A stretch of 64,000 nucleotides of DNA, taken from assembly GCA_013141065.1 (NCBI GenBank), contig JABFRR010000018.1:1-64000 (forward strand), given 5' to 3'. Every line of letters starts with the position of its first letter. Positions within the stretch are counted from its first letter, which is position 1. Below the pieces are notes generated by a model. It was not told where the DNA came from. It saw nothing but the letters and a program-made list of their open reading frames with translations, and did not search any database. Positions 38,379-42,156 of the stretch are shown here, in pieces. Made by a program: the position numbers and the translations under genes. Source of the DNA: Bacteriovoracaceae bacterium. GTDB taxonomy: Bacteria > Bdellovibrionota > Bacteriovoracia > Bacteriovoracales > Bacteriovoracaceae.

Positions 38379-38453
38379 TCCCCCTGTTTTAAAAAACATA
38401 CTCGTTCTATGGCAATGGTGCCATGGGACCTAATTTTTATTAGTCCAGGGGGA
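38379..38453 (+). promoter_or_regulatory. Structured leader that can sequester the rpsF-rpsR ribosome-binding site
   Basis: TCCCCCTG (38379-38386) can pair with CAGGGGGA (38446-38453), which contains the Shine-Dalgarno of the fused gene. Inside lie two further hairpins: ATGGCA-ATGG-TGCCAT (38409-38424) and GGAC-C-TAAT with ATTAGTCC, which has a single C bulge. This arrangement could allow autoregulation by the S6:S18 product, as is known for S6:S18 leaders in other bacteria. The conserved CCG element of that motif was not identified. Confidence 0.5.
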
Positions 38454-38456
38454 TTT

Positions 38457-39101
38457 ATGATTTATGAGTTGTCAGTAGTGACAAAGCCGGAGCTTGGCGC
38501 AGAAGCTCACGCACAGATCGCAGAGATCGTTAAAGACACACTTAAAGGTTTCGAAGGGGAACTTTTAATTGCTGATGATTGGGGAAGATTACTTCTTGCT
38601 CAACCATATGCAAATGGTTCAAAACACGGTCACTTCCATTACTTTATGTACAAGTCGAACACTCAAGCTAACACTGAGTTAACTAGACGATTTGGTATCA
38701 ATGAAGGTGTAATGCGTTCAGCAATGTTCAACATTGGTGTTGACGCTGCAAAAGACGAATTAGTAAAAAACTTCAAAACTCCACTTTCAAAAGCTCACCG
38801 TGGTTCAGTTCTTGATAACAAGACTGACGATGATGATGAAGCTGGATTTGAAGACATGGAAGATGACAGACGTAAATTTGCTAAGAGAAAATCTTGTTGG
38901 TTTACAGCTAAGAAAATTAAAGCAGATTGGAAAGATCCTCAAACTTGGAACTGGTTAGTTTCAGAGTTCGGAAAAATTTCTCCAGCTCGCGTTTCTGGTA
39001 TTTCTAAAAAACACCAGAGATTTGCCAACACAGCAATTAAGCAAGCAAGAAATCTTGGGATTTCAAGTTACCTATCTAACCACACGGCTGATAGAGCTTA
39101 A
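38457..39101 (+). CDS. Fused ribosomal proteins bS6-bS18
   Basis: A single 214-aa ORF. Residues 1-100 match bS6 (MIYELSVVTKPELGAEAH, LLIADDWGRLLLAQPY, TRRFGINEGVMRSAMF). Residues 138-214 match bS18 (RRKFAKRKSCWFTAKKIKA, FGKISPARVSGISKKHQR, then AIKQARNLGIS). An acidic linker (DNKTDDDDEAGFEDMEDD) joins them. bS6 and bS18 form a heterodimer on the 30S platform and are usually separate neighbouring genes, so a fusion is unusual. GGGGGATTT precedes the ATG at 38457; an in-frame ATG at 38409 lies in the leader. The following genes are DUF2232, rplI and dnaB. Confidence 0.9.
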   Translation: MIYELSVVTKPELGAEAHAQIAEIVKDTLKGFEGELLIADDWGRLLLAQPYANGSKHGHFHYFMYKSNTQANTELTRRFGINEGVMRSAMFNIGVDAAKDELVKNFKTPLSKAHRGSVLDNKTDDDDEAGFEDMEDDRRKFAKRKSCWFTAKKIKADWKDPQTWNWLVSEFGKISPARVSGISKKHQRFANTAIKQARNLGISSYLSNHTADRA

Positions 39102-39119: not shown

Positions 39120-40127
39120 ATGACTAAGTTAGAACCAAGTTCACAATTATTTGATAGAGTCTCAACAGTTCCAAAACTGTTGTTTCTTGCCGTCATGACA
39201 ATTGCACTTTGTTCTTTCGCGCCAATGAGTGTGTTTGCTCCAGTTCCTCTCGCTATCGCTTTTTTACTGTATGGACGCTTAATCACGTTTGCAGTCGGCT
39301 TCTTTAGCGTAGGCTTACTCTGGGGAGCAGCTTTGATGGTGAAAGGTTTCCCTAGTCATGTGATACAGATGTATATTGTGGCCTTTCTTTTTGCGGTTCT
39401 TGTTGCTGAAATACTCTTTCGTAACATTAATCCAGTAAAAGGATTGATTAACACAGGATTAATTCTGGTGATTTTATTTGGTTCAATGTTGATTGCATTT
39501 GATCGATTAAGTCCAACTTCACTCAAGGGAGAAATAAGTCAGACGGTTTCAACTGTAATGATGCAGCTTAAAAAAAATAAGCAACAATCGACGGATATTT
39601 CCGCTGAGGATGAGAGAGCTTTTGATGATTTCGTAAATAAGCCTGAAGTGCTGACAAATGAGATTTATAGCTCACTGCCTTTGATTGTTTTTATCTTCTC
39701 ATACTTTGGATTGTGGATCAGTTTGTATGTCACTCTTCGCAATTCAGTCGTATGGAGATACAAGGTCTCTTATGCTTTTAATCTTAAAGATTTGACTTAT
39801 TTTAAAGTGCCTGATTTTTTCGTTTATCCATTAATCTTTTCAATGATTTTACTCGTTGGAGCTGATTATGGATTACCGCCGGGATCCGAAGTTATAGGTC
39901 GCAACCTTTTATATTGTCTTGGAGTTTTTTATTTATTCCAAGGTTTTGGAGTCTACAATGACTTCTTGAAATATTTAAAGATTGGCGGATTTGTAAAAAC
40001 TTTATTTATTGCTTTTACGCTAATTCTGGCATCAAAGTTCCTGGCACTTGTAGGAATTTTTGATTTATGGTTTGATTTTAGAAAATTTTTTATAAATAGA
40101 AAAAAAGATGAAGGAGATACTATATGA
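39120..40127 (+). CDS. DUF2232/YybS-like integral membrane protein
   Basis: A 335-aa protein with about eight hydrophobic segments, beginning KLLFLAVMTIALCSFAPM and ending FIAFTLILASKFLALVGIF. Its place between the bS6/bS18 gene and rplI parallels the Firmicute yybS (DUF2232) genes located near rplI and dnaB. Its stop overlaps the rplI start (ATGA), so it is translationally linked. Its role is not known; a transport or membrane-organising role has been suggested for the family. Confidence 0.65.
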   Translation: MTKLEPSSQLFDRVSTVPKLLFLAVMTIALCSFAPMSVFAPVPLAIAFLLYGRLITFAVGFFSVGLLWGAALMVKGFPSHVIQMYIVAFLFAVLVAEILFRNINPVKGLINTGLILVILFGSMLIAFDRLSPTSLKGEISQTVSTVMMQLKKNKQQSTDISAEDERAFDDFVNKPEVLTNEIYSSLPLIVFIFSYFGLWISLYVTLRNSVVWRYKVSYAFNLKDLTYFKVPDFFVYPLIFSMILLVGADYGLPPGSEVIGRNLLYCLGVFYLFQGFGVYNDFLKYLKIGGFVKTLFIAFTLILASKFLALVGIFDLWFDFRKFFINRKKDEGDTI

Positions 40128-40738
40128 AAGTTATTTTGACTGAAAAAGTTCCTGCTTTAGGGAACATCGGGGAAATCGTAAACGTTTCAGCAGGACACGC
40201 GAGAAACTATTTAGTTCCAAACGGATTGGCAATGGTTGCTGACGAAGGGAATAAAAAATTATTAGCAGCTCAACAAAAAAGCTTAGGTAAAAAAATCCAA
40301 GCACAAAAAGATGCAGCTAATGAAATTAAGAAAAAAGTAGAAGGATTAACTCTTGAACTTATTAAAAAAGTTGGAGCATCTGGAAAACTTTTTGGAACAG
40401 TTACAAACGCTGAACTTTCTAAAGAATTAGAAAACAAAGGTGTTCTTGTTGAAAGAAGACTTATCCACTTAGAGTCCCCAATTAAAGGTCTTGGAACATT
40501 TACTGCAAAAGCAAAAATTTTCCAAGATATTGAAGCGACTTTCAAAGTAAGAGTTTCAATTGATCCTAAGCAAGCAGAAGAGTTAAAAGTAGCTCAAGAA
40601 GAGGCATTAAAAGCAGCAGAAGCTCGTAAGAAAGCAGCAGCTGAATTGAAAGCTTCAGGTGAAACTGCAACTCCAGTCGCTGAAATGACTGAAGAGCAAA
40701 GATTGAAAATGGAAGTTGATAAACTTTTAAGATCTTAA
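40124..40738 (+). CDS. rplI: Ribosomal protein bL9 with long C-terminal tail
   Basis: A 204-aa protein. The first 148 residues are a normal bL9: MKVILTEKVPALGNIGEIVNV, GHARNYLVPNGLAMVA, a central connecting helix, and FGTVTNAELSKELENKGV in the C-terminal rRNA-binding domain. The last about 55 residues form a Lys/Ala/Glu-rich helix (EEALKAAEARKKAAAELKA) not present in E. coli bL9. AAGGAGATACT gives a good ribosome-binding site. It is followed by a terminator before dnaB. Confidence 0.92.
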   Translation: MKVILTEKVPALGNIGEIVNVSAGHARNYLVPNGLAMVADEGNKKLLAAQQKSLGKKIQAQKDAANEIKKKVEGLTLELIKKVGASGKLFGTVTNAELSKELENKGVLVERRLIHLESPIKGLGTFTAKAKIFQDIEATFKVRVSIDPKQAEELKVAQEEALKAAEARKKAAAELKASGETATPVAEMTEEQRLKMEVDKLLRS

Positions 40739-40809: not shown

Positions 40810-42156
40810 ATGGCAGCAAATCCTAACAATCATAACGAACTTCCCCATGACCTCTTGGCCGAAAAAGCCTTGGTTGGTTGTTTGATTATTGATGGGACAG
40901 CTTTTGATGAAATCTCAAATTTACAAATTGATGGTGATCAATTTTATGATCCAAGATACGGCCGCGTTTTTGATGTAATTAGAGATCTTTCACTCGCCAA
41001 CAGAGCGATCGATTTCATTACCGTTTGTAATAGGCTTAAAGATCAAGGAAAACTTGAAGAAGTTGGCGGAGAATCTTTTGTATCTTCCTTAACTGAAGAT
41101 CAAGCCTCATCGGCTAACGTCTACGAGTACGCTAAAATTGTTAAAGATAAATTTTCCATGCGAGAAATTATCAAAACGGCCATGAGAGTTGTTCAAATGG
41201 GAATGACTTTTACGGGTGATACCGAAGATTTTATTCAAGATGTAGAATCAAAATTTTTTAATCTAACTAATGATGCCAAAACTGGTGGAATGGTGAAATT
41301 AAATGCGACATTAAAACAAAATTTAAAAGAACTAGAAGATACGACTAGACTCATGGGTGAAATCTCTGGACTCTCAACTGGATATCCACGCCTAGATGAA
41401 TTACTTCTTGGAATGCAGCCAGGTCAGCTTATTGTCCTCGCAGCTCGTCCAGCTATGGGAAAAACTTCTCTTGCCTTAAATGTGGCGGTCAGTTCATGTA
41501 TTCAATCAGGCTTGCCAGTAGCTATTTTTTCTCTCGAGATGTTAGCGACCGAATTATCGATGAGACTTCTTACGGGGAGAGCTAAGGTTGATTCTAAAAG
41601 AGTTAGGAAAAAAGCTTTCTTAGATACTGACCTTCGAAGTATCGCGAAAGCGACTCAAGAGCTTTCCTCTTTGCCAATTTTCATTAACGATTCAGGTAAT
41701 ACGACCATTCTGGATATTCAAAGTCAGTGCAGAAAAATTAAAGCAGATCAAGGCCTAGGCCTCATTGTTATCGATTACCTTCAGCTCATGGGATCAACTA
41801 GTAAAAATATTCAACGAGAGCAGCAGATTGCGGAAATTTCTCGTGGTCTAAAGACGATGGCAAAAGAACTAGGTTGCCCTGTAATTGCGCTTTCGCAGCT
41901 TAATAGAGGTGTCGAGTCACGGCCTAACAAAAGACCAACCACGGCTGACTTACGTGAGTCTGGAGCTATTGAGCAGGATGCAGACATTGTCATGTTTGTT
42001 TATCGAGATGAAGTCTATTATCCAGATACAAAAGAGCCTGGTGTCGCCGAGATTATCATTGGTAAAAATCGGGCCGGTGAAATTGGAACAGCCAAATTGG
42101 CTTGGGTAGGAGCTTATACAAGCTTTGAAAACTTAGCTCATCACCGTGACGGATAA
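40810..42156 (+). CDS. dnaB: Replicative DNA helicase DnaB
   Basis: A 448-aa hexameric helicase that unwinds the fork. The N-terminal domain starts LPHDLLAEKALVGCLIIDG. RecA-like motifs follow: Walker A ARPAMGKTS at 212-220, Walker B LIVIDYLQLM, and a DnaB signature around VIALSQLNRGVESRPNKRP, then DLRESGAIEQDADIVMF. The C-terminus GTAKLAWVGAYTSFENL is typical. There is no intein. Its end overlaps the start of the next gene by 11 bp. Confidence 0.96.
   Translation: MAANPNNHNELPHDLLAEKALVGCLIIDGTAFDEISNLQIDGDQFYDPRYGRVFDVIRDLSLANRAIDFITVCNRLKDQGKLEEVGGESFVSSLTEDQASSANVYEYAKIVKDKFSMREIIKTAMRVVQMGMTFTGDTEDFIQDVESKFFNLTNDAKTGGMVKLNATLKQNLKELEDTTRLMGEISGLSTGYPRLDELLLGMQPGQLIVLAARPAMGKTSLALNVAVSSCIQSGLPVAIFSLEMLATELSMRLLTGRAKVDSKRVRKKAFLDTDLRSIAKATQELSSLPIFINDSGNTTILDIQSQCRKIKADQGLGLIVIDYLQLMGSTSKNIQREQQIAEISRGLKTMAKELGCPVIALSQLNRGVESRPNKRPTTADLRESGAIEQDADIVMFVYRDEVYYPDTKEPGVAEIIIGKNRAGEIGTAKLAWVGAYTSFENLAHHRDG

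Follow-up and report, generated by a model that had tools for sequence, protein, structure and literature searches.

In the window, by which we mean the whole stretch of 64,000 nucleotides analysed here, ribosomal proteins bS6 and bS18 are encoded as one polypeptide. The fused gene is preceded by a candidate regulatory RNA leader and followed by further genes of its operon. The features, all on the forward strand, are as follows.

38400..38457, + strand: RNA leader of the fused gene, formed by CUC, a covarying hairpin (GCUC...GGGC type), a conserved CC at 38445-38446 and a Shine-Dalgarno (SD) box at 38447-38452
38457..39101, + strand: fused gene rpsF-rpsR, encoding one 214-aa protein that consists of bS6, a linker and bS18
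38457..38786, + strand: bS6 domain (residues 1-110 by the family HMM; Pfam PF01250 core at 38463-38729)
38787..38861, + strand: acidic linker (residues 111-135, net charge -6)
38862..39098, + strand: bS18 domain (Pfam core at 38910-39062; NCBIfam match at 38877-39074)
39120..40127, + strand: gene of a DUF2232 membrane protein, downstream in the operon (profile match)
40124..40738, + strand: rplI (bL9), downstream in the operon (profile match)
40810..42156, + strand: dnaB helicase gene, at the end of the conserved neighbourhood (open reading frame named from its sequence)

The original prediction of a continuous frame with both domains was confirmed. The frame 38457-39101 (+) is uninterrupted over 214 residues, and both domains pass the curated Pfam cut-offs: Ribosomal_S6 (PF01250) at residues 3-91 with 53.6 bits against 27 (E 2.6e-14), and Ribosomal_S18 (PF01084) at residues 152-202 with 52.7 bits against 21 (E 4.7e-14). 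The NCBIfam S18 model (TIGR00165) matches residues 141-206 and also passes (52.6 against 38.75 bits). The narrower NCBIfam S6 equivalog matches residues 1-90 with 32.3 bits, under its cut-off of 42.9. Therefore the protein may automatically be named "S18" only, and bS6 can be scored as absent in annotation or marker-gene pipelines. The linker, predicted as acidic and 18 residues long, is indeed acidic, and the length was approximately right: between the boundaries of the family HMM it has 25 residues.

A longer open reading frame in the same frame begins at ATG 38409. This start was rejected in favour of ATG 38457, since the latter is preceded by a strong SD box, AGGGGG, and by the conserved RNA leader, coincides with the start of the family HMM, and has an ATG at the same position in 78 of 79 fused relatives.

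A structure model of the fusion (pLDDT 87, pTM 0.83) consists of two well-predicted domains, with residues 123-132 of the linker at pLDDT under 50 and predicted to be disordered. The modelled bS6 part matches solved bS6 chains, e.g. 7k00_F and 1g1x_A (Foldseek, E about 1e-7, TM-score by target mostly 0.8-0.9). When a profile of the fusion was compared with PDB sequences, none of the 60 best matches had both domains in one chain.

The assembly has a size of 3.58 Mb and is 92% complete. A separate rpsR elsewhere in the genome, named beforehand as a result that would speak against the fusion, was looked for in this assembly and is absent. No other S18 or S6 was found in it either, the fused gene being the sole copy of both. 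The predicted absence of ssb and priB from the operon was also borne out: the three SSB-family genes of this genome are all situated on contigs other than that of the fused gene.

The Bacteriovoracaceae are mostly predatory bacteria. We searched 129 genomes of this family, and 119 of them had a match. The matching genomes are largely fragmented and probably metagenome-assembled; the close relatives carrying names are Bacteriovorax sp. and Bacteriovoracaceae MAGs. The fusion is intact in 112 of the 119 genomes, in two cases seen across contig breaks (G262, G315). The remaining seven genomes comprise five with two genes (G193, G250, G260, G296, G305), one with a TAA codon in the linker (G093), and one in which the gene is cut by the contig end (G295). 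The fusion is present in most of the genera and was seen in a two-contig assembly (G008), in a one-contig assembly (G240), and in assemblies from different projects. One assembly that also has the fusion contains a second, unfused S6-like open reading frame (G238:C102:472-744, 189-aa frame), possibly on a contaminating contig. A search for the domain pair across Bdellovibrionota was suggested in the original prediction. The fusion was found only in Bacteriovoracaceae and not in all Bdellovibrionota, and a few members of the family itself have two genes. Outside the family, all copies within Bdellovibrionota whose junction was read are separate genes.

The junctions were read in 79 fused loci. 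The linkers are 10-26 residues long (mean 18) and net acidic in all of them. Among 11 distinct sequences from the same genus, pN/pS of the linker is 0.19 for residues 106-137 and 0.11 for residues 116-137; the values for the bS6 and bS18 domains are 0.24 and 0.11, respectively. Such low linker values imply that the linker is translated and constrained. Thus a fusion that is real, single-copy, family-wide and under purifying selection through its linker is supported. It is hardly conceivable that the fusion is an artefact, a stop and a start having been lost from this one contig by a sequencing or assembly error: the same fusion recurs in 112 genomes from most genera and from different projects, and the selection extends through the linker, where the suspected error was not found.

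The linker might still allow two products to be made from one frame, the fusion itself and a free bS18 translated from an internal start. Indeed, the linker in the window contains an in-frame ATG at 38856, and a start-like codon is present in the linkers of 36 of the 79 fused genes, with an SD-like stretch in 11. However, the ATG in the window lacks a clear SD box, the other 43 linkers have no start codon at all, so that separate translation of bS18 cannot be a general rule, and free bS6 would not be supplied by such a route. We regard this arrangement as very improbable.

Another possibility is that the fusion is a precursor: a single chain would be synthesised, and cleavage within the acidic linker would then release ordinary, separate bS6 and bS18. 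A protease could reach the linker, which is predicted to be disordered and is acidic, and separate proteins suffice in the five two-gene relatives. On the other hand, linkers from different genera differ widely in length and sequence, and no obvious common cut-site motif was observed. Within a genus the linker is strongly conserved, which fits either reading. On balance, processing of this kind seems unlikely, and we favour a protein that is kept as one chain.

In E. coli, RimK modifies the C-terminus of bS6, and RimI modifies the N-terminus of bS18. In the fusion these free ends are not available as substrates unless the chain is cut. Loss of RimK and RimI as a consequence of the fusion was considered and is unsupported: RimK-family proteins scoring above the curated cut-off were found in 11 of the 14 fused genomes tested but in none of the three genomes with separate genes, a pattern opposite to that expected under loss. 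For RimI, the signal of the model was drowned by hits to other GNAT proteins. One of the RimK-family ligases is encoded at G000:C2:128708-129559. As bS6 has no free C-terminus in the fusion, RimK must act either on the C-terminus of the fused chain or on a different substrate.

In the five two-gene genomes, bS6 ends at its own TAA codon, bS18 begins at its own start, and the genes are adjacent. Here bS18 has a long N-terminal extension, which is clearly acidic in G250, G260 and G305. The extensions end, for example, in DKDRRMFS, and fused linkers end in EKDRKKFA and similar sequences. This resemblance suggests that the linker was built from the acidic tails of two ancestral proteins. Among relatives in Bdellovibrionota with adjacent genes, bS18 is likewise often extended at the N-terminus, and bS6 often has a charged tail. 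In G093 (locus L131) the fused frame has a single in-frame TAA in the linker, at position 1864 (reverse complement of the locus); the linkers of relatives have an acidic residue at this point. There is no start codon between this TAA and bS18, and it may be an error in the sequence, a stop that is read through or a sign of a broken gene. The opposite extreme to the fusion is observed in the same phylum. G005 and G048 are one-contig genomes of family f6 and are probably Bdellovibrio-like. In these, rpsF and rpsR are located at 30.5 and 768 kb and at 29 and 900 kb, respectively, i.e. about 738 kb and 870 kb apart (record coordinates).

The family tree was constructed from three neighbouring genes, those of the DUF2232 protein, bL9 and DnaB. 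In this tree G250, G260, G305 and G296 (with G093) group together and G193 is placed elsewhere, the deep nodes being weak. A tree constrained to hold all fusions in a single clade is worse by 33 log-likelihood units (AU p = 0.046). Because of the weak deep nodes and the p-value obtained, both scenarios of origin stand: it is possible that one fusion was followed by one or two splits, and it is possible that fusion occurred more than once.

The region upstream of the fused gene contains a candidate regulatory structure. The stretch holding 38400-38457 folds strongly (z -5.45), and the CUC-hairpin-...-CC-SD element can be aligned in 37 fused loci. An anchor pattern was used to trim this alignment, and the structure was drawn up from it by hand, so that it leans somewhat towards that structure. 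The covariation score of the hairpin is 0.401 against 0.152 in shuffled alignments, with none of 500 shuffles as high and slid versions far below; 67 cells have changes on both sides. A CYYG-anchored hairpin of at least six pairs is present in 62 of 77 fused loci, compared with a mean of 3.6 expected from dinucleotide shuffling. The re-pairing figure, 93.5% against 47%, is inflated, as the best hairpin was picked for each sequence. The SD box would take part in an outer CUC/GAG pairing, which hardly varies and is therefore unproven by covariation. Thus, directly upstream of rpsF there is a conserved, covarying structure that includes or abuts the SD box, as would be expected of a leader responding to S6:S18.

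A covariance model of the leader, constructed from these loci, has 38400-38457 as its only match in the genome of the window (E 2.4e-7). The model also matches held-out fused loci, the two-gene genome G193, and G093. No match was obtained in G250, G260, G305 or E. coli. In these three two-gene genomes (G250, G305 and G260; loci L138, L140 and L141) a different leader hairpin is located upstream of bS6, with CC directly after the stem and none before the SD box. The Rfam model RpsF_leader (RF02893) did not match the locus in any genome tested, and it scored 110 bits on the E. coli control. Hence the kinship with the rpsF leader rests on the layout and the CC-SD element. Rfam matches to the S15 leader and STnc490 were far below the cut-offs and were rejected.

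In E. coli, S6 and S18 heterodimerise before binding to the platform, and the S6:S18 complex, but neither protein alone, represses translation of rpsF via the leader (PMC4647458). S18 residues K60 and R63 contact two conserved cytosines of this leader, and changing either weakens or abolishes binding (PMC4647458). Both residues are also rRNA contacts of bS18. Their counterparts in the fusion, located by manual comparison with E. coli S18, are K195 and R198, and they are invariant in 69 fusions.

Judging from these sequences, the covalently linked bS6-bS18 very probably replaces the non-covalent heterodimer of the 30S platform and would serve as one 30S protein that represses its own translation. 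The protein would be made and remain a single polypeptide of about 24 kDa, in which the flexible acidic linker would permit the docking of the bS18 domain on bS6 that is known from other ribosomes. The chain would bind the platform of bS15 and 16S rRNA as a unit; the two proteins would therefore always be present at 1:1, with no free bS18 or bS6. Excess protein, being a ready-made S6:S18 complex, could then bind its own leader and cover the SD box. By analogy with the two-protein complex of E. coli, this occlusion would repress translation of the operon. If so, the whole family has probably swapped two ribosomal proteins for a single, permanently linked chain that is a ready-made autorepressor, which would make assembly and feedback independent of the partners meeting each other.

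To our knowledge, fusions of two ribosomal proteins are rare in bacteria. We found no published description of an S6-S18 fusion in the open-licence papers searched; domain databases may already list this architecture. In the present case the bS6:bS18 heterodimer, an assembly intermediate that many bacteria share, became a covalent unit, and this state has been maintained across one family. The fusion thus offers a natural experiment on two statements found in textbooks: binding of bS6 and bS18 to the platform as a dimer, and repression of rpsF by the dimer only.

The locus can be compared with two known systems. The first one is the rpsF-(priB/ssb)-rpsR-rplI operon, as in E. coli (NC_000913). 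The domain order is the same as the gene order there, rplI follows in both, and in both a leader RNA with an SD box lies directly upstream. However, in E. coli bS6 and bS18 are separate proteins with priB between their genes, whereas in the window they form one protein with nothing between the domains, and, unlike the E. coli operon, the DUF2232 gene precedes rplI. The second one is the rpsF leader itself (RF02893; PMC4647458). Both leaders have a hairpin, a conserved CC and an SD box just before the start of bS6. The hairpin and the spacing in the window are different, and a single chain, instead of two, would be expected to act as the effector.
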